From a virus: a stretch of 35,098 bases of DNA. Shown here in pieces: positions 2,668-32,344 of this stretch. Position numbers and translations under genes: made by a program. The number at the start of each line of letters is the position of its first letter. The first letter of the stretch is position 1. The stretch lies in IMG/VR virus record IMGVR_UViG_3300044980_000225, positions 1-35,098 of that record; one strand, written 5' to 3'. The notes under the pieces were generated by a model. That model saw only the letters and a program-made list of their open reading frames with translations, was not told where the DNA came from and did no database searches.

Positions 2668-2696
2668 AGACTAAGAGTGCGATTAATTTTCGACAA
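2668..2696 (-). promoter_or_regulatory. Late promoter element, copy 1 (adaptor unit)
   Basis: Read on the minus strand: -35 TTGTCG, a 17-bp spacer containing ATCGCACT, and -10 TAGTCT. Transcription would start near 2661, about 30 nt before the adaptor ATG. The whole 29-bp element is identical to the copy at 10679-10707. Promoter function is inferred from repetition, spacing and placement. Confidence 0.6.
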
Positions 2697-2718
2697 CTAA
2701 AAAACACAAGTGATTATT

Positions 2719-3081
2719 TTAAAAGGGAAGCGTGTTTTGTACCGCTGCCAATAAGGTACTATTATCCTCTCCAACCGGTATTACCTGGGCACAAATATCA
2801 TTATGTGGATTTGCCATTCCAGGTATAGAAAATGATTGAAAGGTAGTCGAATTTATGGGTAAAGTAAAAGTCGTAGGACTCGTTACCACGATGTAGCCAG
2901 TAATTCCATTTGCTTCTGGCATACCAGTTGCCACGGGAACATATAATCTCACATAGGTATCAGTGATATAGTTATGTGGAAATGTTGTCGTGACTTGCAT
3001 GGGATCAGATTGGGATATAGCAGCGATTAATGTCATAGCCGGCTGAAAAATGGGATCTTGAAAGGCAAAACATCGTGGCAT
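2719..3081 (-). CDS. Small structural protein with FCCH/Ig-like beta domain
   Basis: A 120-residue protein with SD AAAAGGAAAA before ATG 3081. Residues 18-85 follow the pattern 'I-S-Q-x-x-P-x-x-V-T-T ... H-N-Y ... G-I-T-G-x-I ... T-T-F-T-L', a small beta-sandwich seen repeatedly in phage structural proteins and resembling the FCCH domain. The C-terminal AQVIPVGEDNSTLLAAVQ is closely similar to AEVIPVGEDTATALAQ in the 346-residue protein at 3561-4601, so the two are partial paralogues. It is probably a head-surface, neck or connector subunit. It lies between the capsid cluster and the adaptor. Confidence 0.6.
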   Translation of the reverse strand: MPRCFAFQDPIFQPAMTLIAAISQSDPMQVTTTFPHNYITDTYVRLYVPVATGMPEANGITGYIVVTSPTTFTLPINSTTFQSFSIPGMANPHNDICAQVIPVGEDNSTLLAAVQNTLPF

Positions 3082-3093
3082 AGAATTTTCCTT

Positions 3094-3516
3094 TTAAAGG
3101 ATAACTTTACTTACCGTTACCAAATCAGATTCGTTAAAATCTGATTCATCAGTAAACTCAAGACTCTGGAATCCAAATCGTCTTATTTTTTTACCGATTT
3201 TAGCAATTGGCTTTCCTGTTTCTCCGTCAACTACAAAAGCATGTTCTGGATACCACCCATTTTTATTAAGATGCTTTGCAACACCTAATGGTACTTCATA
3301 GATTTGTCCATCATACATATCATAACGTTCTATTTCATCACCTTCATATGCACAATATACAAAGCTCATGAATCCATCTGGTACTTCATAAAAACGGAAT
3401 ATTCCTCGTACTTTTTCGCGATCTTTTTCACGATTCCATTTTACCCACCCTTTATAATCTTTTCGTATATCGGGACATCCTGGCTTCGTGGTTATTATTT
3501 TTTGATCAACGTGCAT
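3094..3516 (-). CDS. Conserved phage structural-operon protein, function unknown
   Basis: A 140-residue protein with SD GAAAGGAAGAA before ATG 3516. It is a mixed alpha/beta, charged soluble protein with stretches such as FRFYEVPDGFMSFVYCAYEGD, GVAKHLNKNGWYPEHAF and KKIRRFGFQSLEF. I associate this pattern with unnamed proteins found next to capsid genes in uncultured short-tailed phages, but I cannot assign a role. It has no membrane segment or catalytic signature. It lies downstream of a strong hairpin at 3535-3554, so part of its transcription may depend on read-through. Confidence 0.6.
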   Translation of the reverse strand: MHVDQKIITTKPGCPDIRKDYKGWVKWNREKDREKVRGIFRFYEVPDGFMSFVYCAYEGDEIERYDMYDGQIYEVPLGVAKHLNKNGWYPEHAFVVDGETGKPIAKIGKKIRRFGFQSLEFTDESDFNESDLVTVSKVIL

Positions 3517-3534
3517 TTCTTCCTTTCAAGAAAA

Positions 3535-3554
3535 GGGGCTCAATTAAGAGCCCC
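3535..3554 (-). terminator. Intrinsic terminator or attenuator after the 346-residue protein gene
   Basis: On the minus strand GGGGCTC, a 6-nt loop TTAATT, GAGCCCC, then TTTTCTT. The 7-bp GC-rich stem plus short T-run fits a rho-independent terminator of moderate strength. It lies 7 bases after the upstream gene's stop and 19 bases before the next start. Confidence 0.65.
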
Positions 3555-3560
3555 GCAGTG

Positions 3561-4601
3561 TTATACATTAAAAGAGTTTCCAGCGGTCCAGAACATGACA
3601 TCTCCGTTTGAACCAGCAGGTCCAGCGGTTATGCCACCAACAGTTGCTGCACCACCGAGTAACATACCGATTTGAGCAGTGTTTGTTGTAGCATCAGATA
3701 ATAAATTAACGCCAGGAGCTGGTTGTGCTAATGCGGTAGCCGTATCTTCACCAACTGGAATTACTTCAGCAGGAGTGAATGGCACATTAGCAGTCACTGG
3801 GAATGCGAATGCATTAAATCCAGTAGTGTTAATATCAACAGTGAAAGTAGTTGCTGTTGTTGCAATGATATTACCAGTTAATCCGTTGATTTGAGTCATG
3901 CCATACGCAACTGATCCCGGACGTACTTGATTTACGTTAGAGAATCGTACTTGTTGGCCAATTTGATAATTATGATTAACGGTAGTGGTAACGACTGCAT
4001 TATTCGCTTGAGTAATGCTTGCAATTATTCTATTTGATGGATACCAATAACGAACATTATGTAAAATACTGAATGTACCACCAACTGCACCACTTGTTGC
4101 AGCAATACCAGACATATTTTGCAGCGTAAAACTTGTATTATTAATAACCGTTCCAACGGTGAAATCAATACCAGCAAGTTGCTGTGCAAAAGGACCTGTT
4201 CCATTTTGGAAATACATACGAACGATAGACTGTCCCGCAATTAAACCTGAAGTATCAGCAGTAGATACTACTGGAGGAGTTGCATTACTCACCATGGTAA
4301 ATGCAACCGGTGCACTCACTGTAGCAACAGAAGTATCTACAAAAGTAAATCCAGGTACACCAAGTATTGCTGCTGTATCGCCAGTAATAGCAGTACCAGC
4401 CCCATTGAACAATTCTATAATTGCATCACCATTATTCATACCCAATTGCCAATAATAATTCACACCATTATCAGCAGTTTGTGCACCATAAATAGTATAG
4501 TTATAGACTTTCATCCAAGAAACACCAGAACGCAATGGGATAAAAACATCCGCACCTGTTGAAGTGAAAAATCCTTGTTGAATTATAGTATTATTAGACA
4601 T
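3561..4601 (-). CDS. Capsid-adjacent structural protein with two Ig/FCCH-like domains
   Basis: A 346-residue protein with SD AAGGAG before ATG 4601, encoded directly after the major capsid gene. The N-terminal ~90 residues are beta-rich (GFTFVDTSVATVSAP). Two later segments share one pattern: about residues 100-160 (VVSTADTSGL...NNTSFTL) and 195-275 (ITQANNAVVTTTVNHNYQ...GLTGNIIATTATTFTV). The tail AEVIPVGEDTATALAQ is shared with the protein at 2719-3081. The C-terminus is Gly/Ala-rich. The position and all-beta make-up suggest a capsid decoration protein, head fiber or neck protein. The exact location in the virion is unknown. Confidence 0.6.
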   Translation of the reverse strand: MSNNTIIQQGFFTSTGADVFIPLRSGVSWMKVYNYTIYGAQTADNGVNYYWQLGMNNGDAIIELFNGAGTAITGDTAAILGVPGFTFVDTSVATVSAPVAFTMVSNATPPVVSTADTSGLIAGQSIVRMYFQNGTGPFAQQLAGIDFTVGTVINNTSFTLQNMSGIAATSGAVGGTFSILHNVRYWYPSNRIIASITQANNAVVTTTVNHNYQIGQQVRFSNVNQVRPGSVAYGMTQINGLTGNIIATTATTFTVDINTTGFNAFAFPVTANVPFTPAEVIPVGEDTATALAQPAPGVNLLSDATTNTAQIGMLLGGAATVGGITAGPAGSNGDVMFWTAGNSFNV

Positions 4602-4610
4602 GAGTACTCC

Positions 4611-5561
4611 TTAAGGTAATAATGTCGCACGAAGATTTAGTACCCATAGATCATTCGTAATACGTGGAACTTCAGCGAATTTATACCCAACTGAAGCATT
4701 CAATGCAAGTGGACCATCATATATTGGTGGACGATAAATAAAGGTTGCTGAGTAGCCATCTTGTTCAATACACGCATATCCTTCCATACCGGTAACAAAT
4801 ATGTTGTAGACATTCGCATTAAGTGCAGATGCATTTGGAAATACTGATCCAATAGATGAAATCAAGAATCTGACGTTACCTATTGATCCCCATTCGCTAC
4901 GTAATGCATTCATTGGTGAGGGATACTGATTCTTTTGAATAAATCCTGCAACAGAATCTAAATTGCCCGTCAAATTTGTAGAGCACATTGCGAAGTACGC
5001 GTCCCTAACAGGTGCAGTACCAAATTTGTCTTCGCCCTCAATATTATCAAGGATGGTGTATGCATTGTTGTTAAGTAATGCACGTACCACTTTATCTACA
5101 TCCGAGCGGGTAATATTGGTTGGATTATCTCCATTAATACCACCAGTACAGTTAATAAATGAAGCAGTTGCTGCTAACATATCGCGCGTTAATTGATCTT
5201 CTGTCTGACGTAAACTTACTCCAAGACGAGCAGCACATTCATTTAATACCGGATCTTGGTTCTGTAAGGTAACTTGTTCATTAAGTTGAACATAAGTACC
5301 GTAAAATGAAATTTTTGCGTCAATATCGACTGCAGTCAAATTTTGCGGCGGAGGTGTTACGCCACTATTACCCAGGGGAACCATTGCAACAGCAAGAGGG
5401 TTATATCTACGCATACGAAGCGTGGTCCCACCATTACGTGGCATACGTTTATGCATTGCGGGAATTTTATGTATCATATTAGGTACCGGTACACTTAAAA
5501 GCTTATAACTAAAGCTTTGTTGTACAGGCGCAGGCAAAGTCGATGTAGTTGTAATTGCCAT
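4611..5561 (-). CDS. Major capsid protein, N4-gp56-like (HK97 fold)
   Basis: A 316-residue protein with SD TAAGGAAT before ATG 5561. The N-terminal layout SYKLLSVPVPNMIHKIPAMHK, then GGTTLRMRRYNPLAV, then a TPPPQNLTAVDIDAKISFYGTYVQL segment is typical of the N4-gp56 group of major capsid proteins. So are the following DPVLNECAARLGVSL and TRDML helix (spine-helix region). It lies after scaffold and portal, as expected for the shell subunit. It has its own promoter candidate (5703-5731) and a stem-loop near the predicted mRNA start, consistent with a need for high expression. I saw no cleavage-site signature. Confidence 0.85.
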   Translation of the reverse strand: MAITTTSTLPAPVQQSFSYKLLSVPVPNMIHKIPAMHKRMPRNGGTTLRMRRYNPLAVAMVPLGNSGVTPPPQNLTAVDIDAKISFYGTYVQLNEQVTLQNQDPVLNECAARLGVSLRQTEDQLTRDMLAATASFINCTGGINGDNPTNITRSDVDKVVRALLNNNAYTILDNIEGEDKFGTAPVRDAYFAMCSTNLTGNLDSVAGFIQKNQYPSPMNALRSEWGSIGNVRFLISSIGSVFPNASALNANVYNIFVTGMEGYACIEQDGYSATFIYRPPIYDGPLALNASVGYKFAEVPRITNDLWVLNLRATLLP

Positions 5562-5674
5562 AGCATTCCTTAGAGTTGAATATATAATTTTTCTCTAAGC
5601 TGACGAGACTTGCTATACGTCAAAACGAGGTGGTGAATCTCTATACACCAGTATTAATTTCAGATAGATTTGAA

Positions 5675-5699
5675 GGTAGCGAAGCTTCATAACGCTACC
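5675..5699 (-). promoter_or_regulatory. Stem-loop at the predicted 5' end of the capsid mRNA
   Basis: GGTAGCG and CGCTACC form a 7-bp stem with an 11-nt loop. The promoter candidate at 5703-5731 would start transcription near 5696, so the hairpin would sit almost at the mRNA 5' end, a position known to stabilise bacterial transcripts. It could instead be a terminator for read-through; no T-run follows. Confidence 0.45.
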
Positions 5700-5702
5700 A
5701 AT

Positions 5703-5731
5703 AAAATAATAGTGCGATTAATATTTTGAAA
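5703..5731 (-). promoter_or_regulatory. Late promoter element, copy 4 (major capsid)
   Basis: Minus strand: -35 TTTCAA, 17-bp spacer containing ATCGCACT, -10 TATTTT, with the same geometry as the other four copies. It lies 142 bases upstream of the capsid start. Its -35 overlaps the ribosome-binding site of the + strand gene at 5744. Confidence 0.5.
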
Positions 5732-5743
5732 GGAGAATATATA

Positions 5744-5968
5744 ATGTATTTTGAAGATATTTTGGATTTACTTATAGCGCTATTAGGCATTATAATGGTA
5801 ATTTCTCTTATACTGGTATTATTTACTCCAGAACGACCACAAATAAAAACTACTTATATAACTTTGCCAAATGGAGAAGTAACAAAAAAAGTTACAGAAA
5901 AATCTCCAAAACGACATAGATCACATTCGAATTTGATTATGGTTAATCAACATAGATATAATCATTGA
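5744..5968 (+). CDS. Small single-pass membrane protein, moron-like
   Basis: A 74-residue protein starting at ATG 5744 with AAAGGAGA eight bases upstream. A TTG-started frame from 5726 would run through that SD and is unlikely. Residues 5-29 are one hydrophobic helix (DLLIALLGIIMVISLILVLF), followed by a polar tail rich in Lys, Arg and His, suggesting N-out/C-in insertion. It is transcribed against its surroundings and sits between hairpins at 5675-5699 and 6017-6046, the usual look of an inserted 'moron' gene. A holin, antiholin or superinfection-exclusion role is possible, but nothing in the sequence decides it. Confidence 0.65.
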   Translation: MYFEDILDLLIALLGIIMVISLILVLFTPERPQIKTTYITLPNGEVTKKVTEKSPKRHRSHSNLIMVNQHRYNH

Positions 5969-6016
5969 CGCCGAAAAATAACCATATGCTCCTAAAATTA
6001 TCCATAATTTTTGACC

Positions 6017-6046
6017 ATCTTCTGGCCGGAAAGGCAACCAGAAGAT
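6017..6046. terminator. Convergent hairpin between scaffold gene and membrane-protein gene
   Basis: ATCTTCTGG pairs with CCAGAAGAT (9 bp, 12-nt loop). It lies between the 3' ends of two convergent genes (stops at 5968 and 6083). No clear T-run follows on either strand, so it may act as a bidirectional terminator or as an RNA-stabilising end. Confidence 0.5.
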
Positions 6047-6082
6047 AGTTTACATGATACAATCAGGTGCTTTTAGGATGAT

Positions 6083-6841
6083 TTAATAACCACGGCGTGA
6101 ATCATTCATTTCTTTTCGCAATTGTTCTTTTAGATCATCAGTCAACCCATTCGCAAACGCATTCGCTCGAGATAAAGGACTATCTCCTTGCTGAGGATTT
6201 ACTGATGCAAGTGGTTTAGGTTTTGCTGCATTTGCTTTAATTCTCTGAATATCTTGCGCATAGGGTGCTTGTGCTTGTGTATTCATAGTATTTATACCCA
6301 GTTTTTTTATGATATTATATGCGGCTATTGCCTTTGAACGTATGTCTGGATTCGATTTGAGACTTTCAGCAATATCGGGATATTGTTGTATAAGCGCATC
6401 AACATTTTCTTTTGTTACAACATCTCGATAATCTTTATATTCATTCAATACTTGTTGTGCTTGTTGTTCTTGTTGATAATGTTGTAACTGTTGTTCATAT
6501 TTACGTATCTTTTTATCAATAATACGATCAACATGTTTACGTTCAACCAGATCGTCATCTGCAAGACCAAGATCATCTTCTACTGGCACCTGTTTTTGTT
6601 GTGTTTGTAATGAGCGTATATAATTCATTGCTTCATCACGTTCACGTTCAGCTCGTTCAGCTTTTTCACGCAATTGGCGAAAGTTACGTGCTGAAGGTGT
6701 TTCTATGTCTGATTGCATTTGCTGAGATTCTTGCTCCGGTACATGGTCATTATCAACATCAACAACTGGTTGTTCATGTAAGGTTTCTTGTTGTAATTGA
6801 AAGCTTTCTTGTGGTGGGAAATGTTCTAAATTGTCTTGCAT
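6083..6841 (-). CDS. Scaffolding protein
   Basis: A 252-residue protein with SD AAAGGACG before ATG 6841. It is highly charged and Gln-rich. It has an acidic, disordered N-terminus, a long predicted coiled coil at about residues 50-140 (LREKAERAERERDEAMNYI, then KKIRKYEQQLQHYQQEQQAQ), and a positively charged C-terminus (LKEQLRKEMNDSRRGY). This composition, plus its place directly before the major capsid gene, is typical of an internal scaffolding protein; the basic tail would bind coat protein. Assigned from architecture and synteny. Confidence 0.75.
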   Translation of the reverse strand: MQDNLEHFPPQESFQLQQETLHEQPVVDVDNDHVPEQESQQMQSDIETPSARNFRQLREKAERAERERDEAMNYIRSLQTQQKQVPVEDDLGLADDDLVERKHVDRIIDKKIRKYEQQLQHYQQEQQAQQVLNEYKDYRDVVTKENVDALIQQYPDIAESLKSNPDIRSKAIAAYNIIKKLGINTMNTQAQAPYAQDIQRIKANAAKPKPLASVNPQQGDSPLSRANAFANGLTDDLKEQLRKEMNDSRRGY

Positions 6842-6875
6842 CTTCGTCCTTTCTACGAAATACTAATTAATCTAA

Positions 6876-7367
6876 TTAAATGTTATCAAGTAAAATTACC
6901 GGTGGTGTTTCTATTTCCCCATTACGTTTTTTTGCTAATCTAAGCAACGTACCATCCTTAAAGTCTAATATAAATTTTAACAATTCAAGTTCATCTGGCT
7001 TTACCATTGTTCTATTCAAATAGAATGCTTCACAGGTAGCTTTGTCCGGTACAACCCATAAGAATTCAAGTTTGTCATCACTTTTGGTATAAGCATAGAC
7101 TACCTGATCCCATGTAGGAGTGGGACAATCACGCGTATCTAAAAAATAACTACGAATAACATTTTTCATGAGTGGTTCTTTTTTTGTAATAACTACTACA
7201 TAAAAATCACCGGGATATTTTGATTTGGCCAGAATCAATCGTTCAAATATATTCTTGTCATAATCGGAAAGTTGTTCAGTCATCTGCTCATAGCTCGACT
7301 CAGATTCCAATGGTTTCACTATGAGCTCAGATGACAATTTACCGATAGTATCACGTGTTTCGATCAT
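6876..7367 (-). CDS. Conserved phage protein of unknown function in head operon
   Basis: A 163-residue protein whose ATG overlaps the stop of the upstream DUF6496 gene (TAATG), so the two are probably translationally coupled. It is an alpha/beta soluble protein with YPGDFYVVVITKKEPL, CPTPTWDQVVYAYTKSDDKLEFLWVVPDK and LLKFILDFKDGTLLRLAKK. I recognise this as a recurring unnamed family beside scaffold genes in uncultured phages, but no role is known to me. It has no signal peptide or catalytic motif. Confidence 0.65.
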   Translation of the reverse strand: MIETRDTIGKLSSELIVKPLESESSYEQMTEQLSDYDKNIFERLILAKSKYPGDFYVVVITKKEPLMKNVIRSYFLDTRDCPTPTWDQVVYAYTKSDDKLEFLWVVPDKATCEAFYLNRTMVKPDELELLKFILDFKDGTLLRLAKKRNGEIETPPVILLDNI

Positions 7368-7657
7368 TATTTTTTCTTCATTTCAGAAGCAGAACCATAT
7401 TTACGGGCTTCATTCATGGCAATTGCAATAGCTTGTTTGCGATTTTTCACCATAGGGCCTGTTTTTGAGCCTGCATGAAGTTCACCATGTTTAAATTCAT
7501 GCATAACTTTTTCGATCTTGCCTTTTTTTGAAGGCTTATGATGCATCTTTTCTGGTTCATGCTTCTTTTTTTTATTTTTGTGTTCTATTTCTATTTCAAT
7601 ATCGATACCACGATGCTTTTTACGCATAGGTGATTTTTTTTCTTTATGTTTTGCCAT
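7367..7657 (-). CDS. Lys/His-rich basic protein with DUF6496 motif
   Basis: A 96-residue protein with SD GGGAAGA before ATG 7657; its start overlaps the preceding gene's stop (TAATG). The first 50 residues are almost all Lys, His, Arg and Glu. Residues 50-88 (KVMHEFKHGELHAGSKTG then RKQAIAIAMNEARKYG) match the DUF6496 pattern. Function is unknown. The strong positive charge and place among head genes would suit DNA binding inside the capsid or at the portal, which is inference. Confidence 0.7.
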   Translation of the reverse strand: MAKHKEKKSPMRKKHRGIDIEIEIEHKNKKKKHEPEKMHHKPSKKGKIEKVMHEFKHGELHAGSKTGPMVKNRKQAIAIAMNEARKYGSASEMKKK

Positions 7658-7971
7658 TAATCTTCCCGTTTTTCAGATTTCTTTTCTCTTTCTAGTTTGT
7701 GTTTTTTAAGTTCGGGGTACATTCTATAGACTTTTGATTTGATTCCTGCGGGGTCTGGGGCGAAATGTGCTCTTGCAAGTGCATTCCGTGCGTGCGCCAA
7801 ATCAGGAATAGGGAAACTATACTTATTAGCCCCACCGCTAGCACCAGCGAAATCTTTTGGGGCGACATGTTTATATTTTCCAGCATTTGATGATCCTTTC
7901 TTAGAGCGCATTTTTTCTTCTACGCCCCGTTTCACTTTAACACCTTTTGCTACCGTAACTTTATTTTTCAT
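7657..7971 (-). CDS. Small basic head-operon protein
   Basis: A 104-residue protein with SD CAGGAACC before ATG 7971. The basic N-terminus is followed by a conserved-looking core FPIPDLAHARNALARAHFAP and KSKVYRMYPELKKHK, and by a charged C-tail. The 'P-D-x-x-H-A-R-N-A-x-A-R' block recurs in phage head proteins and in proteins of the DUF6582 type, of unknown role. Its stop overlaps the next gene's start. With its neighbours it forms a run of tiny basic proteins between portal and scaffold. Confidence 0.65.
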   Translation of the reverse strand: MKNKVTVAKGVKVKRGVEEKMRSKKGSSNAGKYKHVAPKDFAGASGGANKYSFPIPDLAHARNALARAHFAPDPAGIKSKVYRMYPELKKHKLEREKKSEKRED

Positions 7972-7995
7972 TTTGGTTCCTGAAAATGAAATAAC

Positions 7996-8012
7996 GGGGA
8001 GTTTTCCTCCCC
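7996..8012 (-). terminator. Intercistronic hairpin after the 49-residue ORF
   Basis: Minus strand: GGGGAG, loop GAAAA, CTCCCC, then GTTATTTCATTTTC. The stem is 6 bp and GC-rich with a GNRA-like loop. The T content downstream is weak, so partial termination or mRNA end protection is more likely than full termination. Confidence 0.5.
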
Positions 8013-8032
8013 ACTATTTCAACCACGACTAA

Positions 8033-8182
8033 CTAACGTACACGAAAAGTATCTTCAAATTGTAATCTACGCTTTACTTCATTTTCTTTAGTCTTCTTTT
8101 TAGTATCATCTTTGGTATTCAGATTCAATAAACGCTTGGCGATCTTAGTCGCTTTGCCTTTTTTGCGGATTGTTCCCGGCAT
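8033..8182 (-). CDS. Tiny basic protein, 49 residues
   Basis: ATG 8182 (MPGTIRKKGKATKIAKRLLN) to TAG at 8033-8035, with a near-perfect AAGGAGGATCAG SD directly upstream. The product is extremely Lys/Arg-rich (more than a third) with no acidic cluster except near the C-terminus (FEDTFRVR). It fills an otherwise empty gap in the head operon. The strong SD makes it a convincing gene despite its size. A role in binding DNA or in the scaffold/portal complex is possible. Confidence 0.7.
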   Translation of the reverse strand: MPGTIRKKGKATKIAKRLLNLNTKDDTKKKTKENEVKRRLQFEDTFRVR

Positions 8183-8192
8183 CTGATCCTCC

Positions 8193-8531
8193 TTAATACT
8201 TTGTATCAGATCTAAATTTCTTCATGCCGGCTTCATCTTGACCCATTTGTTTATCGATACCACCAATAGTATCATCAAGATCAGGATATGGATTGCCATG
8301 ATACGAAGATGGCCACGCTCTCATAATTACCTGTTGAGGCATGTTTGCTACCGCATTATGGTCTTCACTAATCATACGCGAATCTTCTCGCTCCATACGA
8401 CGTCGTGCATCAACGCCAGCATATTCGCCTTCATTCATATTTTTTCCATTTCCGCCATGTACGTCCATACCATGGCTATGATGTCCCATTTTTCGTTCTT
8501 GACGGGACTCACTATAATGTCTTTTCTTCAT
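8193..8531 (-). CDS. Small charged head-operon protein, unknown
   Basis: A 112-residue protein starting at ATG 8531 (MKKRHYSESRQERKMGHHSHG). AAGGAA lies six bases upstream; the longer frame to 8576 lacks an SD and would run close to the portal gene's end. It is rich in His, Gly, Met and Arg, and predicted largely disordered. It contains DARRRMEREDSRMISEDHNAVANMPQQVIMRAWP followed by PYPDLDDTIGGIDKQM. It is encoded directly after the portal. It may be a portal-associated or internal head protein; no family assigned. Confidence 0.65.
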   Translation of the reverse strand: MKKRHYSESRQERKMGHHSHGMDVHGGNGKNMNEGEYAGVDARRRMEREDSRMISEDHNAVANMPQQVIMRAWPSSYHGNPYPDLDDTIGGIDKQMGQDEAGMKKFRSDTKY

Positions 8532-8594
8532 TCTGCTTCCTTGTAGCAACTGAGTTATCTTTTTTGATAATCTCAAGGTTTAAATATCCTCTAA

Positions 8595-10643
8595 CTACTG
8601 TATCATTGGCTGGGATTGTTCTTGCATATCGGGTTGTTGCATCTGTCGCTGTTGAACGTCTTGAATAGCGCTTGCATCTTTAAGGGTCTTAGCAACAGTA
8701 ACAAGCTGAGCCAAATGATTAATATCCATTCCATCTAATTCTTTCATAGCTTTTACCAGATTCAATAAGCCGAGTTCATGGTCTTTAATCGCTGCCGCAC
8801 GGCGTTCTTCAGCAAGCGCCTGATTTTCTTGAATACGACTGTATCGTTCTGCACCAAGTCCTTGATCTGCTTGAGCACGCGCCTGAGCTAATTGAATGCG
8901 TGATTGTGCTTCTTGCTCAGCAACTTGCATTTGAGCTTGTTGTTGCTGCATCATTTGTTGTTTTTCTTGTTCCATAGCGGCCATTAATTTGCGTTTATCC
9001 TGTACGGTAACTGCATCAATAATTGAACTGTCTGGAATTGGAATACCAAGTTCACGAAGTTGTAAGAGCTGTGCCAGTTCCATTTGTTTTTGCGTAGTAC
9101 TATTAATGCCTTCTTCAACTGCAGAATCGTACTTTCCAAAAGCTTTATTATAAAATTGTGGCGCTGGTTCTTCTTGTATAATTTTTTTTATTTTACCTGG
9201 CGTAAAGTTACTTTGAATAACATCAATCATAATCTTACCCAATAATTTTTGTGATCGATCAAGTTGATCGAAAAGTCTCTGAAGAGTAGTAAGACCAGCT
9301 CCTTGTCTAAGCATGCTTAAAATGCCTGCTTTGTCATCAATTGCTGAACCGAGCAATTCTTCATTTACACCTGAAATTTCTTGAACTTCCCGTGAAAGAA
9401 TTTCTGACAATTGGATCATTGATGGCGGAACTTGTGGCGGAATGATCTGTTCAACATCACTCATTTGCGCTTCTTCTTTTAATGCCAGACCTCGTCCTTG
9501 ACCGGATAAGAATATGTCTCGTGGATTTACGAGAGAACTTTCTTTATACTTCCAACCCGAATTAATTTGGCTTTCAAGGATATCAAGTTCAATTGCTTTA
9601 CGTCGATTATAGAGATATTGTGCATCACGCAGACCACGCACTACTCCTTGTACACGGCCGGGAAAGTAAGGCATTTCTGGGGTGTAATATGCCATGACTG
9701 GTACAAATGGATATAAATCTATATTGAGAGGATTAGGGCCATCATACATGACCTTACCTTGGACAACAATAGCAAGACGTACCGTTGGTATTTCTTGATC
9801 TATTACCGCTATAGATGGTTCATGTTGTAAAAATATTTTCAACATGTCTTCATCTTGACCGCGCCATTCTTGGCTTTCACCTGTCTGAGAATCAACAAGC
9901 ATTTTTTGTTTGCGATAATCACGGTAATAATATTCATCGTACGTTAATAAATTTTTCATACCATAATTGTAATTCTCTGGCATAAATTGGAACTTACCAT
10001 CACGATTATCATTTCCCATAAGTTGCATAATTTGATCAACTTTATCGGGTAATAATGAAGCACATTCTCCTTTTGTAAGGAATGATCGCTTCCAAATTGC
10101 ATTACAGTCTGATAAATCATGTTTCCTAAAAAAGGGGTCAATCAGAAAGCTATTATAGGAACAATTATCAACTTTTATATTACCTGATATGGGATCAGAC
10201 CTAAAGTCTAACCAAACCTGTAAAAGATTCATGCCGGTACCAAGAGCACCATGAAATGCATCTGATATGGTTTCCAATACCCCTTCTTGTTGATTGCACC
10301 ACAATAATATCTTTGAATATTGATCTGCAGTTCCTTCATCAGCATTTTCAACAGGAACCACGATCGTTGACTTCCTATTGCGACGCTGATGGCCAGATAT
10401 CATTTCTACAACGCGGCGAATACGGTTAAAAGAAAAAGAACGACGACGATTTGCAGGTAAATTTCCATATATATCATTCCAAACGGTTTGATCACCCGTT
10501 AGGAATCGGGTATCGGTATCAGCTTCAGTCCAAAAAGATTGATTAATTGAGATAGATTCGGCATAAAACGCCATCATACGATCAAGAATTCCTCGATCTT
10601 GTTCATTATAATATTCTGGTCCAAGTTGGGGAAATAATGGCAT
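8595..10643 (-). CDS. Portal protein, P22-like
   Basis: A 682-residue protein with SD TAGGAGTAG before ATG 10643. The N-terminal region (WTEADTDTRFLTGDQ, FNRIRRVVEMISGHQRRNRKS) and the stem region (PYFPGRVQGVVRGLRDAQYLYNRRKAIELD, then SREVQEISGVNEELLGS) fit the P22-type portal family. These form the dodecameric vertex through which DNA is packaged and to which adaptors bind. The last ~130 residues are a long Gln/Ala-rich coiled coil (from about residue 555), comparable to a barrel extension. The length is close to P22 portal size. It lies after the terminase and under its own late promoter element (10679-10707). Confidence 0.85.
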   Translation of the reverse strand: MPLFPQLGPEYYNEQDRGILDRMMAFYAESISINQSFWTEADTDTRFLTGDQTVWNDIYGNLPANRRRSFSFNRIRRVVEMISGHQRRNRKSTIVVPVENADEGTADQYSKILLWCNQQEGVLETISDAFHGALGTGMNLLQVWLDFRSDPISGNIKVDNCSYNSFLIDPFFRKHDLSDCNAIWKRSFLTKGECASLLPDKVDQIMQLMGNDNRDGKFQFMPENYNYGMKNLLTYDEYYYRDYRKQKMLVDSQTGESQEWRGQDEDMLKIFLQHEPSIAVIDQEIPTVRLAIVVQGKVMYDGPNPLNIDLYPFVPVMAYYTPEMPYFPGRVQGVVRGLRDAQYLYNRRKAIELDILESQINSGWKYKESSLVNPRDIFLSGQGRGLALKEEAQMSDVEQIIPPQVPPSMIQLSEILSREVQEISGVNEELLGSAIDDKAGILSMLRQGAGLTTLQRLFDQLDRSQKLLGKIMIDVIQSNFTPGKIKKIIQEEPAPQFYNKAFGKYDSAVEEGINSTTQKQMELAQLLQLRELGIPIPDSSIIDAVTVQDKRKLMAAMEQEKQQMMQQQQAQMQVAEQEAQSRIQLAQARAQADQGLGAERYSRIQENQALAEERRAAAIKDHELGLLNLVKAMKELDGMDINHLAQLVTVAKTLKDASAIQDVQQRQMQQPDMQEQSQPMIQ

Positions 10644-10678
10644 CGCTACTCCTAGACGTCAGGGAATGAATCCTCAAC

Positions 10679-10707
10679 AGACTAAGAGTGCGATTAATTT
10701 TCGACAA
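10679..10707 (-). promoter_or_regulatory. Late promoter element, copy 2 (portal unit)
   Basis: Minus strand: -35 TTGTCG, 17-bp spacer with ATCGCACT, -10 TAGTCT, identical over 29 bp to the copy at 2668-2696. It overlaps the 3' end of the 81-residue gene upstream and lies 36 bases before the portal ATG. Identity between two sites 8 kb apart argues for function. Confidence 0.6.
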
Positions 10708-11174: not shown

Positions 11175-11197
11175 ATATACCTTTCTAAAAAATTAAC

Positions 11198-12556: not shown

Positions 12557-12606
12557 TACGGCCCCATATAAAGTTGCGTAAATCCTCCGATTGGATTACC
12601 CCCTAT

Positions 12607-13552: not shown

Positions 13553-13600
13553 TTAATTCCTAAAAAATTCCACGTTATATAGTGTAGTGATTTACGTTTC

Positions 13601-14226: not shown

Positions 14227-14227
14227 A

Positions 14228-14608: not shown

Positions 14609-14634
14609 AGCATCACCACTACATGATAATATGA

Positions 14635-14877: not shown

Positions 14878-14897
14878 CTTTACTCTTCTGTAAGGAG

Positions 14898-19936: not shown

Positions 19937-19940
19937 AAAT

Positions 19941-25637: not shown

Positions 25638-27281
25638 TTAAGACAATACCCAAAATGTAAGAACAATATTACCATTAAGTGCAGATACACCACCATTGGT
25701 GAGCGTTATTACCGCACTTCCTGATTGTGGTAAAATACGATTTACACGCATTTCTGCATCATTTGTACCGGTATTAGTCACTGAAGCAATAATGGCAGAT
25801 GTTGCTGCTATAAAGCTATTGGTTAACGTGACTACAAGAGTACCACCCGCCGCTTGGGTATATCCTGCAAAAGTTACTGAACCAACACGTGCATTATTAA
25901 CCACGGTTACCGTAGATCCTGGTCCCGCTGTTGCAGCAACTTGTATATTTCCTATAGAAACGTTTCCATCGGTACCGCCATCAATAACAACCGTTCCCGT
26001 ACCTGCTGCATTACCAATAGAAGTGTTGCCGTTGCCTGTTGTATTAATATCAATTACCCCAAATTGATTAATGGTAGTTAATCCATCAACATTACCTATA
26101 GTCACCGTTTTTGCACCAGTGGCAGTCGTGCCTGTTGCAATATTAACATTGGTTGATCCGAGAAGATTAGTTCCCGTTGCAATATTGACTGTTTTAGTAG
26201 CACTTGCGCTCGTGTTTACGCCACCAGTTGCTAAGTTTAATGTGTCCGTATCAGCTGTTACCACGGCACCACCATTGATAGTTGTGGTACGATTAACCGC
26301 AGGAGTGACATTGGCAAGATTTATGGTGGTTACCGTATCAGTAGGAGCCATAGTTAAATCAGTAGCAGGATCAATCGTAATAGTGGATCCAGAAGTTTGA
26401 ATAATATCACCCGTTGTGGTTAAACTTACTCCGTCAGTACCAGCTTCTACTAATATACCGCCAGTTGTATCAGTTGCTTCCAAATGGATTGCACTTGCAG
26501 AAACTGCATCAGCAGTTAAATGAATTGTACCGACACTTGCACCATTTGCGGTGAGTGCAATGGGTCCCTGTGCTAAAGCAGCAATACCAGCACTCGTACC
26601 ACCAGTAGTAGCATCAAGCACAAGTGCGCCACTTATATCAGCATCAGATTGAATATAAATTGCACCATCGGTGGACAATATACCAATCGCAGAACTTGTT
26701 ACGGTGCCCGCTCCAGTTCCGGTCGTATTTTCGATCAGAATACCACTTGCGGTTCCACCGTCTGCTTGAATAATAATTGCATCCTGTACGCTTTCTCCTG
26801 CAACGATACCAATAGATCCAAGACCGGAAGAAATAAGTATGTCTTTTGCAGCAGCAGCCGTAGCTATTTCAATACCACCTGCGGCTGATGTAATATCTAT
26901 CGAATTGGCTCCAGTTCCAACCGTTGATTGAATTACGATAGTACTTGAAGTACCGCCAGTTTCTTCAATGGTAACAACACCAGCAGAATTTACATTACCA
27001 TTAATTAATGTGCTTCCGGTAATACTAGTTGGTCCAGGATTTACCGTAAGACTGGAAAGTACTGAACTATTGGTAGAAGCTACTGTCCATATAGCATTAT
27101 TTCCTACAATATTTGTTAAAAAATAAATGTTATCAGTAGCTTGATCAATCCACTCAGTACCAATAGGTGCAAAATCACTTATGGTCGGTGCTGTATTAGC
27201 TAATATTGGGGGATTGATTACGGGAATTAATGGATCTGTAAGCCCATATGCAGTGGGATTAGTAAAATTATTTATTGACAT
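25638..27281 (-). CDS. Large repetitive tail-fiber/shaft protein
   Basis: I place the start at ATG 27281 (MSINNFTNPTAYGLTDPL), preceded by GAGG; the frame open to 27308 has no SD. The product is 547 residues. Residues 1-75 (IGTEWIDQATDNIYFLTNIV) are an anchor domain shared with the protein at 21374-22360. About residues 85-460 are irregular Gly/Thr/Ala/Ile-rich repeats (GILIENTTGTGAGTVT, NIATGTNLLGSTNVN), typical of a beta-helical trimeric shaft. The C-terminus (GSVTFAGYTQAAGGTLVVTL, NGNIVLTFWVLS) looks like a small tip domain. First gene of the fiber block, under promoter element copy 3. Confidence 0.7.
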   Translation of the reverse strand: MSINNFTNPTAYGLTDPLIPVINPPILANTAPTISDFAPIGTEWIDQATDNIYFLTNIVGNNAIWTVASTNSSVLSSLTVNPGPTSITGSTLINGNVNSAGVVTIEETGGTSSTIVIQSTVGTGANSIDITSAAGGIEIATAAAAKDILISSGLGSIGIVAGESVQDAIIIQADGGTASGILIENTTGTGAGTVTSSAIGILSTDGAIYIQSDADISGALVLDATTGGTSAGIAALAQGPIALTANGASVGTIHLTADAVSASAIHLEATDTTGGILVEAGTDGVSLTTTGDIIQTSGSTITIDPATDLTMAPTDTVTTINLANVTPAVNRTTTINGGAVVTADTDTLNLATGGVNTSASATKTVNIATGTNLLGSTNVNIATGTTATGAKTVTIGNVDGLTTINQFGVIDINTTGNGNTSIGNAAGTGTVVIDGGTDGNVSIGNIQVAATAGPGSTVTVVNNARVGSVTFAGYTQAAGGTLVVTLTNSFIAATSAIIASVTNTGTNDAEMRVNRILPQSGSAVITLTNGGVSALNGNIVLTFWVLS

Positions 27282-27395: not shown

Positions 27396-27584
27396 ATGAA
27401 AGATAGAAGAATTGTATATCAAGCACACCTCAAAAGAATAATATTAGATGTTGAACCAAAGTTTCATAATGAAATAAAAGTGAGAGCAGCGCTTAGAAAT
27501 ATATCAATAAAAGATTATGTTGAAACAGCGTTAAATGTTTTTATACAGCAATATGAAAAAATACCAATAACTACAAAGGAATAA
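27396..27584 (+). CDS. Ribbon-helix-helix (CopG/Arc-type) regulator
   Basis: A 62-residue protein starting at ATG 27396 (MKDRRIVYQAHLKRI) with TAGGAG upstream; the longer frame to 27324 runs through promoter sequence. LKRIILDVEPKFHNEIKVRAAL gives the beta strand and first helix, NISIKDYVETALNVFIQQ the second helix: a textbook RHH fold. It is a lone + strand gene between two minus-strand structural blocks, with a divergent promoter pair in front. It may autoregulate and also affect the fiber promoter. A tiny hydrophobic ORF follows directly. It could be an antitoxin-like or partition-like protein, but no partner of known type is present. Confidence 0.75.
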   Translation: MKDRRIVYQAHLKRIILDVEPKFHNEIKVRAALRNISIKDYVETALNVFIQQYEKIPITTKE

Positions 27585-27585: not shown

Positions 27586-27642
27586 ATGACTTTCATAGGA
27601 ATCGTAATTACCATTTTTATAATCAGATGGTTATTAGATTAA
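27586..27642 (+). CDS. 18-residue hydrophobic peptide ORF
   Basis: ATG 27586 to TAA 27640-27642, with AAAGGA six bases upstream, inside the end of the RHH gene. The peptide MTFIGIVITIFIIRWLLD is almost wholly hydrophobic, as in small membrane-acting peptides. It lies one base after the RHH stop and would be co-transcribed with it. It is very short and could be chance, but the good SD supports it. Confidence 0.4.
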   Translation: MTFIGIVITIFIIRWLLD

Positions 27643-28973
27643 ATATCCATCCCAAATTTTTTTAAAAGATCGAGATATCTTTTTACGCCTTGTTCATCTC
27701 GTTTCATAGCAGCATCAAAAGCAAGTGCTGCATATTCTTGTAGTTCTGGTTTATTTTTCTTAAAGAAGTGGATTACATCACGGGACGGTTTTCGTTTAAC
27801 ACCCCACGTAAATAATCTCTTTAATTTCCCTGGTTTGAATTTGGAGAAGAGGGGATTTTCCATGATACTTTTCATATAATCATCAGTCTCTTTAATAGTT
27901 CCCAAATTTTCAGCAAGTGTTTCAGCTCTTCGATAGGGCTTTCCGAAGTCTAGATTAGCTTTTTCTGCCTTTTCTATTTGTTCATTAAGCGTGCCATTAA
28001 TACGCTTAAGCCAATTAACTTCCGTTTCAGAGCCAGATTTTTCCAATCGGTCTTTTATTAAAGCATTAATATGCTTTTTTTGTTTTATAGCTCTTCTTAA
28101 ATTAATTTGGCCAACTTTTGTTCCAGTTTTATTAATAATTTTGTTTATATCATTAACTTCTTGAGTAACTCGTTTTATGGCAGTTGATTCCATACCAGTG
28201 CCCCCTTGTCTTATATCCTTTGCTAGTTTATCGATACTTCTTTGTAATGGTTCACCTTGCAAGTATATTTTCTGTGCTTGTTTATCAGCAAGTTTATATT
28301 GCGCTTGTTCAGTATCTTCAGCAAATTTAATAAGATTCATTCCGGACTTTTTATGGGCCCATGCTTCAAAGCCACCAGCACCGACCAGATTAGCTATGGT
28401 TTGCATAAGTGGTCCTCCACCAAGTTCTGAAGTAATAAATCCAGGGGCAACACGAGAAGCAATTTTACCTAAGAAACGTGGTGTTGCGCTTGCTCCTCCG
28501 GTTAATATATCAACAGCAATACGTGGTACTTCTGTTGCCAATTCATCAATACCTCTTTCGACTATATCTTGTGGCTCAAAATAATTTTCTGGCGCAAGTT
28601 TGGCGATATGGCCCTTTATACTTTCCGGCGTCGGTAATTGTTCTCCAATAGTGCCGGCTACTGTTTTTATTATTTTCGCAGGAATTGGTCCTCCGGGAAC
28701 CAATGATTCCAATGCACTCTTTGATGTTTCAGGTAAAGATTTGAGCGTACCATATATAGATCCGGGAAGACCGCCAACACTTTCTGCTATACGTGAAGCA
28801 CCACGACCTAATTGACGAGCCCCATACTCTGGCCATGTTTCTTCAGAAAAATTGTATTGGGAATTTTCTTTTTCGCCGATTGGTTCTTCATCAAAACGCT
28901 CAAGTATTTCATATTTACCCAAAGGTTTTAATGATGGTTGCTCATCAAAAAGTTCTAATATTTCATATGGCAT
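27639..28973 (-). CDS. Ejection-type internal virion protein (large)
   Basis: A 444-residue protein with SD AGAGGAA before ATG 28973. It starts with two copies of a short repeat (YEILELFDEQP, YEILERFDEEP), a feature I associate with podophage DNA-ejection proteins. A hydrophobic, Gly/Pro-rich middle follows (VGGLPGSIYGTLKSLPETSK, ITSELGGGPLMQTIANLVGAG), and then a long Lys-rich helical C-terminal half with coiled coils. Such proteins leave the capsid with the DNA and help form a channel across the cell envelope. The role is inferred from composition and position at the end of a block of similar proteins. Confidence 0.55.
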   Translation of the reverse strand: MPYEILELFDEQPSLKPLGKYEILERFDEEPIGEKENSQYNFSEETWPEYGARQLGRGASRIAESVGGLPGSIYGTLKSLPETSKSALESLVPGGPIPAKIIKTVAGTIGEQLPTPESIKGHIAKLAPENYFEPQDIVERGIDELATEVPRIAVDILTGGASATPRFLGKIASRVAPGFITSELGGGPLMQTIANLVGAGGFEAWAHKKSGMNLIKFAEDTEQAQYKLADKQAQKIYLQGEPLQRSIDKLAKDIRQGGTGMESTAIKRVTQEVNDINKIINKTGTKVGQINLRRAIKQKKHINALIKDRLEKSGSETEVNWLKRINGTLNEQIEKAEKANLDFGKPYRRAETLAENLGTIKETDDYMKSIMENPLFSKFKPGKLKRLFTWGVKRKPSRDVIHFFKKNKPELQEYAALAFDAAMKRDEQGVKRYLDLLKKFGMDI

Positions 28974-28990
28974 AGCATTTCCTCTGGAGA

Positions 28991-30208
28991 TTATTCTGGA
29001 GAAAATGATTTTCCATTAGAAACCATTATCTTACCGGTATTTGAATCTTTATATCGTTTCACTTTAGTTGGATCTGGTAATTCATCGGACATTTCTGGTT
29101 GTCCAGATTTTTCTGCCTTCATAGGAGCAATCAATTGATTGAATTCATCGGTAGCTTCATTTTTTATTTCATTTGCACGTTCATCAGTTAATTTTCGAAT
29201 ATTTGCCGGCCGTTTCCCGCCATTTTCTTCAATGATTTTTTCCATTGCCAAATCTTCTGCTTGCGAAGCGCGTGCCATCGATTTATATATCTCGCCAATA
29301 CGACGACGACCTGCTTCGCTGTTTAATAGCGTTGGTACTGTTGCCATAAAGAATTCAATTTCTTTCTCAGTTACTCGACTACCAAAGAGTTGTTTTGCCC
29401 CTTTTACGAATCCAGCACTTCGTTTCTTATATTCTTGTGTTTCTGGACTGGTTAGACCCCACAAGTTAACACCGTGTCCAAATAGACCTTTTTCAGCAAC
29501 TTCTAAAGCTGCAGCTTTACCAGGGGAAATAAGTTTTCCCGAAGAACCGAGTTTTTCCATTTCTAGAATTTCTTTTACATTATCTTGGTCTGCTTTGGCT
29601 TTATCTTTAATTTGATCATACCATTTCTGTGTTTGTTGATCGATATGATGTTGTTCGACGCGTTCTTCTTTTGTTTGTTCGGTCTTATGTTTCCTTTCAG
29701 CTTCAGACTTTTGAAATCCTAGTTTTTCTTCTGCTAAACGCAAGCGTGCTTGCTCTGGCGTTTCTTTTTTTTGTCTGAATAAAGCAGATTTGCGTGTCTC
29801 CTCTGGCTTTCGTGCGCGCTCAAGGGATATTTCATCAAAAGCTTGTTTGACTGCGGGATTAACTTTCAATTCAGCTCGTTCTTCGGGAACAGTTGCTTCG
29901 GGTTGTGATTGTGCCGGTTCACGTTGTGATATCGCATCAATTAATTTAGCTTGAACAGTCGGGGGTGAATTAACAATAAGACGAGCATCTTCAGGAGTAA
30001 ATCCAGCTTTGACTAACATTTCTTCCGTAAGTTTATTTGGTGTTTCAGAGAGACCAGTAATTTGTCCTAGACCACTTGCAAGAGTGCCGAGACCAGAGCC
30101 GATCCCTTCGCCAATTGTTTGTCCTACTTGCGATCCCAGACCGGTAGCTAATTGATTAGCAAATATTTGTCCCGTTGATTTTGATTCAGGTACTACAGTT
30201 AATGCCAT
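28991..30208 (-). CDS. Ejection-type internal virion protein
   Basis: A 405-residue protein with SD AAGGAG; its ATG overlaps the previous stop (TAATG). Residues 12-55 are Gly/Leu-rich and amphipathic (TGLGSQVGQTIGEGIGSGLG), able to interact with membranes. Residues ~100-210 are a highly charged coiled coil. The C-terminal part (TQEYKKRSAGFVKGAKQLFG, EKEIEFFMATVPTLLNSEAG) is helical with a conserved look. No lytic-transglycosylase or peptidase motif is visible. Together with its neighbours it probably forms the ejectosome. Confidence 0.5.
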   Translation of the reverse strand: MALTVVPESKSTGQIFANQLATGLGSQVGQTIGEGIGSGLGTLASGLGQITGLSETPNKLTEEMLVKAGFTPEDARLIVNSPPTVQAKLIDAISQREPAQSQPEATVPEERAELKVNPAVKQAFDEISLERARKPEETRKSALFRQKKETPEQARLRLAEEKLGFQKSEAERKHKTEQTKEERVEQHHIDQQTQKWYDQIKDKAKADQDNVKEILEMEKLGSSGKLISPGKAAALEVAEKGLFGHGVNLWGLTSPETQEYKKRSAGFVKGAKQLFGSRVTEKEIEFFMATVPTLLNSEAGRRRIGEIYKSMARASQAEDLAMEKIIEENGGKRPANIRKLTDERANEIKNEATDEFNQLIAPMKAEKSGQPEMSDELPDPTKVKRYKDSNTGKIMVSNGKSFSPE

Positions 30209-30651
30209 TATCGTGCTCCTTGGTTGAGTGTATTGGCAGCAATACCCTTGAGATACTTAAGCATTAAGTTTCTGCCATCTCCGCTCATTTTACTCAAGAT
30301 ATTTTCAAATATTCTACGTTGATCATCTTCAGATTCAGCTAATGCTTCTGGAACAATCGATTGTTGTGCTTCGGTTTGCGAACTACTTAATTGTTGTAGT
30401 AAGTTTCTAATGATGTTCTGCATAGCACCATTGCCGATTTCATCCCCAATTTGTTGCATACCGGACTGTCCTGATAAAGATTGGGCTTCCGGATTCTGCT
30501 GGCTGAGAACACTTTCTAAACCGGCACCGGTTAAACCCCCAAGAGCACCACCAATTGGCCCACCTGCAGCATTTCCTGCGGTTTGTGATACAAGTGGCAA
30601 TAACTTCACAAGTAATTGTGCTAATCCCGGATTTACTTGTTGTATTTGCAT
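30208..30651 (-). CDS. Small Gly/Gln-rich ejection-block protein
   Basis: A 147-residue protein with SD GAGGAA before ATG 30651. Residues 10-55 are hydrophobic and Gly/Ala-rich (LLVKLLPLVSQTAGNAAGG, IGGALGGLTGAGLESVL), possibly membrane-inserting. The rest is Gln/Ser-rich and helical. Its stop overlaps the next start, implying coupled translation. A role in DNA ejection is inferred from neighbours. Confidence 0.5.
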   Translation of the reverse strand: MQIQQVNPGLAQLLVKLLPLVSQTAGNAAGGPIGGALGGLTGAGLESVLSQQNPEAQSLSGQSGMQQIGDEIGNGAMQNIIRNLLQQLSSSQTEAQQSIVPEALAESEDDQRRIFENILSKMSGDGRNLMLKYLKGIAANTLNQGAR

Positions 30652-30660
30652 AGTTATTCC

Positions 30661-31218
30661 TCATGTAGGTAGTTGATATGGTTGACTATAATTACTCAAT
30701 TGACGACCCGTAAAATCTATAGCGGGACCTGCTAATGCGCCAAGTGGTCCAAATGCACCTATTCCGGCAGCACCAGCAACGGGAGAAAAATCTTGGAGTG
30801 CATTTCCTACAAACTGACCCGCTTTCTGTCCCCACGTAAGTGGTTTATTGGCTAAATTTTGTGCATTCATATAGGAAGAAGAACGTGTGTTGCCAAATGG
30901 ACTTTGATTCATTTGTTGTGCACTCGTTGGTTCTAGGCGTGCTAATATATTTTCCAGTGTAGCCATATGAGGTTGATTGCCAAATTGACCTTTACCAAGC
31001 AATGCTTCCAGTAATCCTTCAATGCCACTTTTTGATTTAATTTCTGCAGCTTTTTGTTGATCCATTTGCTGTTGATCTTGACGTGGTTTATTTATCTGAT
31101 TAAACAGATATTGCATAATAAAGTTATTTATTTGTTCATCAGTCAACTGATTGGCTTGCATTGGTTGATTTTGATTTGGTTGAGCCATTGGCGTTTGCGG
31201 AACTTGAATGTCTGGCAT
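30661..31218 (-). CDS. Gln-rich virion-type protein
   Basis: A 185-residue protein with SD AAAGGATAA before ATG 31218. The N-terminal 60 residues are Gln/Asn/Pro-rich and predicted disordered (QPNQNQPMQANQLTDEQINN). The C-terminal 60 are Ala/Gly-rich with weak hydrophobic helices (GQFVGNALQDFSPVAGAAGI, GPLGALAGPAIDF). Encoded between other ejection-type proteins on the same strand. No family recognised. Confidence 0.5.
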   Translation of the reverse strand: MPDIQVPQTPMAQPNQNQPMQANQLTDEQINNFIMQYLFNQINKPRQDQQQMDQQKAAEIKSKSGIEGLLEALLGKGQFGNQPHMATLENILARLEPTSAQQMNQSPFGNTRSSSYMNAQNLANKPLTWGQKAGQFVGNALQDFSPVAGAAGIGAFGPLGALAGPAIDFTGRQLSNYSQPYQLPT

Positions 31219-31228
31219 TGTTTATCCT

Positions 31229-32263
31229 TTAAGATATCTTCGGCTCATTAACGCCTTTTACATTTTTAACTACTCGTTTGGCAATATCTTTCCATACTGC
31301 ATTGTTTCGTAAATAACTTGGAATATATTTAACATTGCCGGTTTCGATGAATTTCAACATTTTTTCGATGTCATGTTCATCTTTTAATTCTCTAAGCGCA
31401 TTTATAATATTTGGATCCGTGTTGGCATTAAATAATTCGCTTGTTGCTAACTGATGTAATTTCCGCAATCCAGATTCACTCAATGGATTTTTATTACTAT
31501 TTTTTAGTGATTCAAATTGAGATGCGTTATAATCACCACCAGCATCCATAATATCATCAAGTAATCGTTGTGCTGATGGATCTCGATCTACCAATGCTTG
31601 AGCGGCAGCAGAACTACTAATGCGATCTCGATTAACTTTTGCTTGACCACCTGGCCCATGACCCATGCCGACCGATCCAAGAATGCTTTCGGTAATTGGT
31701 CCAAGTTTTTTACCGACTTTATGACCAATATTACGCGCAACTTCTTTGCCTTTTTCAATGTACGGTGCTGCTGTTTCACTAATTTGTTTCCCCACTGTTT
31801 TTGGTACTTCACCTTCTGGCTTTTCCATTAAAACATTTTCAGAAGTTGGCACAAATCCGAATTTCAATAATTGATCAAGTTCACTTTGACGTAATCGTTC
31901 TTCTTCTTGGCCAAATTTTGCACGTTCAGCAGCTAATTGTGATTCAAGTTCGGTACCTGCTTTGGCGAGTTCTCCCATAAAACCAGAACTTGCAGCGGTG
32001 TTACCGGTACCAACAAAGCGTTCAGCTATTGATGGGATGGTTGTATTTTGAAATTGTCTACGCGCATGTGCTTCAATTGGATTGAATGCATTCGTATTTC
32101 TACCACCAATTAAATTAGTTAATGATTTAAATAATAAAGGATATTGAATAGCCTGTTGTGGTGCTCCCGTTGTTGGTAATTGATATATTTGTCGTCCGGG
32201 ACCTTGACCAATATTTACCAGAGAATTTATAAAATTTCTGGCACTTGTTGTTGTTTCTGCCAT
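31229..32263 (-). CDS. Ejection-type internal virion protein, first of block
   Basis: A 344-residue protein with a strong SD (AGAGGAG) before ATG 32263. Residues 65-135 (EAHARRQFQNTTIPSIAERF, GNTAASSGFMGELAKAGTEL, LAAERAKFGQEEERLRQSEL) form a helical segment of a kind I know from internal and ejection proteins of short-tailed phages. The middle is Gly/Lys-rich and flexible. The C-terminal third is helical (LRELKDEHDIEKMLKFIETG). First gene of the minus-strand block reading toward the fibers, under promoter copy 5. Assigned by pattern and position. Confidence 0.55.
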   Translation of the reverse strand: MAETTTSARNFINSLVNIGQGPGRQIYQLPTTGAPQQAIQYPLLFKSLTNLIGGRNTNAFNPIEAHARRQFQNTTIPSIAERFVGTGNTAASSGFMGELAKAGTELESQLAAERAKFGQEEERLRQSELDQLLKFGFVPTSENVLMEKPEGEVPKTVGKQISETAAPYIEKGKEVARNIGHKVGKKLGPITESILGSVGMGHGPGGQAKVNRDRISSSAAAQALVDRDPSAQRLLDDIMDAGGDYNASQFESLKNSNKNPLSESGLRKLHQLATSELFNANTDPNIINALRELKDEHDIEKMLKFIETGNVKYIPSYLRNNAVWKDIAKRVVKNVKGVNEPKIS

Positions 32264-32315
32264 CAGTATCTCCTCTTACATTACTAACATAATTTTATGC
32301 GCACCTATACGCTAT

Positions 32316-32344
32316 ATAATAAAACTGCGATACAAGTTTTGAAA
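32316..32344 (-). promoter_or_regulatory. Late promoter element, copy 5 (ejection block)
   Basis: Minus strand: -35 TTTCAA, 17-bp spacer with ATCGCAG, -10 TATTAT, 53 bases before the first ejection-type gene. On the + strand the same sequence offers a perfect TATAAT (32315-32320) for the gene at 32356, so it may fire in both directions. Confidence 0.5.

Follow-up and report, generated by a model that had tools for sequence, protein, structure and literature searches.

Which signals govern transcription of the structural genes in an uncultured phage, and what might read them? The question is raised by the IMG/VR virus record IMGVR_UViG_3300044980_000225, all 35,098 bases of which are referred to here as the window. 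Five 29-bp sites in the window precede structural units and share their strand, and each carries the hexamer ATCGCA inside a 17-bp spacer between -35-like and -10-like sequences. On balance, the five elements are probably promoters of virion-structure operons at which a phage factor would read the spacer sequence ATCGCAC, most likely as a late activator. An uncultured phage family, whose hosts are probably chlamydia-like bacteria, would thereby gain a concrete map of its promoters.

Five 29-bp elements upstream of structural units

The initial annotation had reported the coordinates of the sites, their gapless alignment on the minus strand, the common ATCGCA, the 17-bp spacer, the -10 pattern and an identical pair, and all of these proved exact on recheck. 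The -10 hexamers are TAGTCT (twice), CAGACT, TATTTT and TATTAT, in which the second A and the final T are invariant. Sites 2668 and 10679, named by their first coordinates, are identical across 29 bp and lie 8 kb apart. The elements fall into two classes, A and B.

2668–2696, minus: class A element TTGTCGAAAATTAATCGCACTCTTAGTCT, preceding the adaptor/tail-like gene (ATG 2628 likely); kept before the orthologue in related contigs L088 and L085
5703–5731, minus: class B element TTTCAAAATATTAATCGCACTATTATTTT, ahead of the capsid gene with its structured leader; plus-strand gene 5744–5968 runs divergently; kept before the orthologue in L088 and L085
10679–10707, minus: class A element, same sequence as 2668–2696, before the portal gene; kept before the portal gene in L088 and L006
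27315–27343, minus: class A element TTGTCGAGAAAATATCGCACTGCCAGACT, preceding the first fibre-like gene (ATG 27281 likely); the ribbon-helix-helix (RHH) gene 27396–27584 runs divergently
32316–32344, minus: class B element TTTCAAAACTTGTATCGCAGTTTTATTAT, before gene 31229–32263; divergent from plus-strand gene 32356–32895; conserved at the orthologous position in L088

A matrix made from the window sites together with the orthologous ones recovered these five sites only (40.2, 40.2, 33.5, 30.7 and 25.8 bits). The next best score in the window was 12.4, and the best in 15 order-1 Markov-shuffled control windows was 17.3. With leave-one-out matrices, every site still ranked in the top five. Furthermore, the pair 2668/10679 is the best repeat among the gene-upstream regions of the window (29 of 29 positions; shuffle maximum, 21).

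Class A elements have the form TTGTCGA...ATCGCACTnnnAGnCT, rendered at greater length as TTGTCGA...ATCGCACT...AGnCT, and contain a partial dyad, CGA-N7-TCG. Class B elements have the form TTTCAAAA...ATCGCAnTnTTATTnT, that is, TTTCAAAA...ATCGCA...TTATTnT, and are without a dyad. Site 27315 and both class B sites sit between divergent genes. In class B, the sequence TTTCAA overlaps, on the other strand, the Shine–Dalgarno sequence of the plus-strand gene, and because of this overlap its role as a -35 hexamer is doubtful. The position of the G of an extended -10 TG is not conserved in the elements. Relative to the inferred start of transcription, ATCGCAC would lie at about -22 to -16.

The first genes downstream of the elements are the following.

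1651–2628, minus: tail/adaptor-like structural gene, served by element 2668; weak tail match to phrog_10775; start assigned by its Shine–Dalgarno sequence
4611–5561, minus: major capsid protein gene; phrog_1357, E 2.7e-31
8595–10643, minus: portal protein gene; phrog_156, E 3.2e-70
25638–27281, minus: fibre-like gene, first of a unit with the tail fibre gene 22442–23461; repetitive sequence, neighbours with tail-fibre matches; start assigned by its Shine–Dalgarno sequence
31229–32263, minus: first gene of the putative internal-virion/ejection cluster 27639–32263; assigned by position only

Translation probably begins at ATG 2628, not GTG 2664, after site 2668, and at ATG 27281 after site 27315. 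With these revised starts, the leaders running from the elements would span 33–52 nucleotides, and 141 nucleotides for the capsid gene. The earlier claim that every copy precedes a structural unit is borne out by profile matches for the portal, the capsid and one fibre. For the adaptor it comes down to the weak tail match, and for the ejection proteins to gene position, the cluster members scanned giving no family match.

Conservation in the clade and promoters in distant relatives

Three related contigs (IMGVR_UViG_3300025313_000136, 3300032053_008014 and 3300032053_002999) carry the element. Their seven counterpart sites are always found at orthologous places, before the portal gene, the adaptor-like gene, the capsid gene or the orthologue of 31229–32263. 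Across the 12 sites of the four contigs, ATCGCA is present in 12 of 12, as are the A at position 2 and the T at position 6 of the -10 hexamer that mark sigma70-class promoters. A TTG at 16–18 bp, taken as the test of a -35, occurs in all seven class A sites and in none of the five class B sites. Orthologous elements are 76–93% identical between genomes, and the 60 bp downstream of them are 20–47% identical, except in the closely related L088/L085 capsid pair (92%). Because the element was kept while its flanks drifted, its conservation reflects selection acting on the element itself rather than overall sequence similarity.

In the close relative L088, the best upstream repeat is the pair corresponding to 2668/10679 (26 of 29 positions). 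Among about 30 relatives searched for repeated 29-bp promoter elements, none were as clear as those of the window and L088; the top-scoring pairs elsewhere mostly did no better than shuffles or fell in coding repeats. In exact-pattern scans of IMG/VR, the strict class A form was found in this clade only. A loose 14-base pattern gave more than 100 matches in viral contigs and was set aside; beyond the clade contigs (L006 and L085), there was just weak TerL/capsid similarity (about 26%). The class B pattern similarly matched four further, unrelated places, mostly coding-looking, which were also rejected.

About 90 relatives lack the motif, and 99 portal and 91 capsid upstream regions were compared. 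The pattern TTG-N19-21-TAGACT occurs in 24 of the 99 portal regions (0.4 expected), and TTG...TAT[AGT][ACT]T in 31 of the 91 capsid regions (6.2 expected). Sigma70-like promoters in these regions lie a median of 43 nucleotides before the portal ATG, compared with 35 in the window, and 145 before the capsid ATG, compared with 141. The combination ATCGCA-N4-TAnnnT was found in none of the relatives' portal and capsid upstream regions. Since sigma70-like promoters stand at these places even in relatives that lack ATCGCA, the -35/-10 frame is ordinary and family-wide, and the centred ATCGCAC alone is special, found in this clade only. The elements, on this comparison, occupy the family's usual promoter positions. 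It seems that the clade kept ordinary promoter positions yet inserted a new common control site.

The proposal that the elements are promoters of structural units is thus backed both by the conserved orthologous sites and by about 90 relatives without the motif, in which sigma70-like promoters stand at matching distances from the portal and capsid genes. The initial annotation had also taken the weak -10 hexamers as a possible sign of an altered polymerase, a view that found no support: TAGACT is the usual portal -10 in relatives without ATCGCA. It had further named, as evidence that would speak against the elements, related phages that keep the genes but not the motif. Outside the clade this is literally the case, but other promoters sit at those places. 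Class A has a weak -10 and class B a stronger one, in line with -10 hexamers that differ by gene throughout the family, and gene-specific promoter strength appears to be kept across divergent phages. TAGACT serves as the portal -10 in about a quarter of the relatives' upstream regions (for example, L018, L024, L027, L029, L032, L042, L051 and L064), and capsid -10 hexamers are TATAAT-like.

A putative reader of the spacer motif

As ATCGCA is invariant across promoters with different hexamers, a reader is called for, and a phage factor that reads the fixed spacer motif is a plausible explanation of the invariance, and the best one. In the proposed mechanism, host polymerase with a sigma70-class factor would contact the -10 hexamer and, in class A, also the TTG of the -35, while a phage-encoded DNA-binding factor of the clade would read ATCGCAC inside the spacer. 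The factor would most likely activate, with the structural units firing together late in infection, and in class B it would stand in for the absent -35. In the clade, the promoters for capsid and ejection genes have gained ATCGCAC and have no -35 TTG. All five class B sites are without the TTG seen in the relatives' recognisable capsid promoters, and the motif may therefore compensate for it. Most simply, a factor bound at ATCGCAC would take over the -35 contacts, which favours an activator over a repressor. A more specific version, put forward tentatively, holds that an undescribed factor of a Chlamydiota phage activates the structural promoters via the spacer ATCGCAC and, for the capsid and ejection genes, takes the place of the -35. 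If an activator does act in the spacer, it would represent an unusual form of late-gene control and a small, testable protein–DNA pair.

Several points weigh against this reading. The preference for activation draws on a single comparison. Only four contigs, of which two are short, are known to carry the element, so its 12 sites are not 12 independent events. Furthermore, no regulator-like gene tracks the motif cleanly, including the RHH, helix-turn-helix (HTH) and RHH-Cys proteins that the initial annotation put forward for binding tests. The candidates considered are listed here.

10694–10939, minus: candidate reader, a small protein encoded immediately upstream of the portal element; relatives in motif-bearing L005 and L006 only
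12607–13173, minus: candidate reader, an RHH-like protein whose tail is rich in Cys; found in the window and motif-bearing L005 only
27396–27584, plus: small RHH-type DNA-binding protein; sub-threshold ParD and HicB Pfam matches; divergent from the fibre promoter

None of these is present in all motif contigs, absent elsewhere and equipped with recognisable DNA-binding features. The product of 10694–10939 is the sole small clade-specific protein seen in the window, L005 and L006, and it has no recognisable DNA-binding domain. Gene 12607–13173 is missing from the syntenic slot of L006, and the structure predicted for its product was uninformative (predicted local distance difference test score, pLDDT, of 32). 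An RHH-like protein of L005 and L006 (86% identical) is absent from the window. Gene 27396–27584 has relatives in motif-less phages (L089, L138 and L144), and a single-sequence model of its protein did not show the fold. Positions 12607–13552 of the minus strand hold two overlapping paralogous RHH-like genes with a common EECxIxxREFY motif, one of which has the added Cys-rich domain.

The elements share a 17-bp spacer, the A2 and T6 of the -10 and, in class A, the TTG with sigma70-class promoters that have a spacer-bound or overlapping regulator; unlike in those promoters, an invariant spacer heptamer is here common to promoters with quite different -35 and -10 sequences. P2 Ogr, Mu C and T4 MotA are late-gene activators of -35-poor promoters, with sites at or upstream of the -35. 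As in those systems, a few structural operons each have the same candidate activator site, ATCGCA being present in all five elements and the seven orthologous sites, and the -35 of class B is weak. The present site differs in lying inside the spacer, and no homologue of these activators was recognised in the phage. The stoperators of cluster A mycobacteriophages are asymmetric 13-mers that number more than 20, have a known repressor and often lie outside promoters (PMC9283540). They resemble the elements as short asymmetric sites, oriented with transcription and dispersed in one phage clade. Many stoperators sit in transcribed intergenic gaps, whereas the window has five sites, all in promoter position. 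The start-associated sequences of cluster K, found at translation starts (PMC3203893), and the palindromic 17-bp repeats of cluster O (PMC4351075), both with an unknown reader, are likewise clade-specific, upstream of genes and kept at orthologous places; here, in contrast, the repeat is built into a -35/-10 frame. A literature search for spacer-bound phage activators found no direct match. The elements appear to behave like a set of co-regulated phage late promoters.

ATCGCAC could instead be an operator. A phage repressor bound there, in the spacer, would block RNA polymerase and keep the structural promoters silent early in infection or in a carrier state, with relief coming late; this is possible, though somewhat unlikely. 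The operator of P22 Arc lies between the -35 and the -10, where the motif is also found. The phage has an HTH gene (18292–18555) as well as RHH-type genes, and class A has its partial dyad. The orientation of the motif is fixed with transcription, as in the asymmetric stoperator/operator sites of L5-like phages (PMC9283540). However, the dyad or repeated half-sites of an RHH operator of the Arc/CopG type are represented by the partial dyad of class A only, and class B is without it, with a single copy of the motif per promoter. In class B, moreover, the motif was gained and the -35 TTG lost, a change that repression would not require, and no integrase or similar lysogeny gene was recognised.

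ATCGCAC might, together with the -10, instead be read by a protein of the host, either a transcription factor or an alternative sigma factor, which would tie late phage transcription to the host cycle. The probable Chlamydiota host has a developmental cycle, and no phage reader was found, but the motif is missing from the same promoters in related phages, whose hosts are presumably related too, and a host signal should be shared more broadly; the explanation is accordingly judged improbable. More doubtful still is a reading in which the repeats are simply promoter sequence that was copied recently, by duplication or gene conversion, and ATCGCAC has no reader of its own. Such copying would fit the pair that is identical at a distance of 8 kb, but the surroundings and both hexamers differ across genomes and classes while ATCGCA is unchanged in 12 sites. 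Very little probability is given to promoters for a phage polymerase, single-subunit (T7-like) or other, although ATCGCACTnTTA vaguely resembles the CACTAT core of T7 and SP6 promoters. No RNA polymerase or sigma gene was found among the window proteins scanned, in a record that may be incomplete, and the largest is the 682-residue portal protein; the -10 A/T pattern and the TTG spacing fit the relatives' sigma70-like promoters. The T7-like promoter idea was dropped, as no single-subunit RNA polymerase is among the proteins scanned.

Probable host, capsid leader and other features

A megablast search of window positions 1–20000 against annotated phages gave no match, and a tblastn search with the portal protein retrieved distant phages only. 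Portal relatives are encoded on more than 200 contig stretches and capsid relatives on about 600. Among bacterial genomes, capsid relatives gave five matches, including one Simkaniaceae and one Parachlamydiaceae metagenome-assembled genome (MAG). Portal relatives were found in nine of 234 Chlamydiota genomes (up to 66% identity) and in none of 369 gammaproteobacterial genomes, the class of a Methylococcaceae MAG. The host of the phage family is therefore probably among the Chlamydiota, that is, chlamydia-like bacteria, although contigs in MAGs may have been assigned to the wrong bin. A literature search on tailed phages of Chlamydiota found no direct match.

The capsid leader downstream of the element at 5703 has a predicted structure of its own.

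5597–5697, minus: mRNA leader of the capsid gene, in which three H-type pseudoknot units lie in tandem (5671–5697, 5627–5650 and 5597–5622)

Two to four tandem H-type pseudoknots are a family-wide feature of the capsid leaders of relatives (about 86, L088–L166). Units with both stems number 221 in 86 non-redundant capsid leaders, compared with 62–88 in shuffles, and in portal and adaptor leaders such units are at shuffle level. When units were defined by stem 1 alone, the 3-bp stem 2 paired in 116 of 127; when the 3′ tails were dealt among units, the mean was 60 and the maximum 75, indicating strong covariation. In an Rfam search of the window, no family matched the capsid leader. The pseudoknots possibly act in translational control or mRNA stability, and they may be more novel than the promoter elements.

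Other genes recognised in the window encode terminase, RusA, Erf and a tail fibre. At positions 1878–3965 of L006, the terminase large subunit is apparently interrupted by an in-frame intein-like insert (CFTGDTKILT...VHNS) with an HNH-like overlapping frame. Five tRNA genes lie in a row on the plus strand of the window (33087–33707), those for Gly, Asp and Glu and two whose anticodon loops were unclear to ARAGORN, and all five match the Rfam tRNA family.

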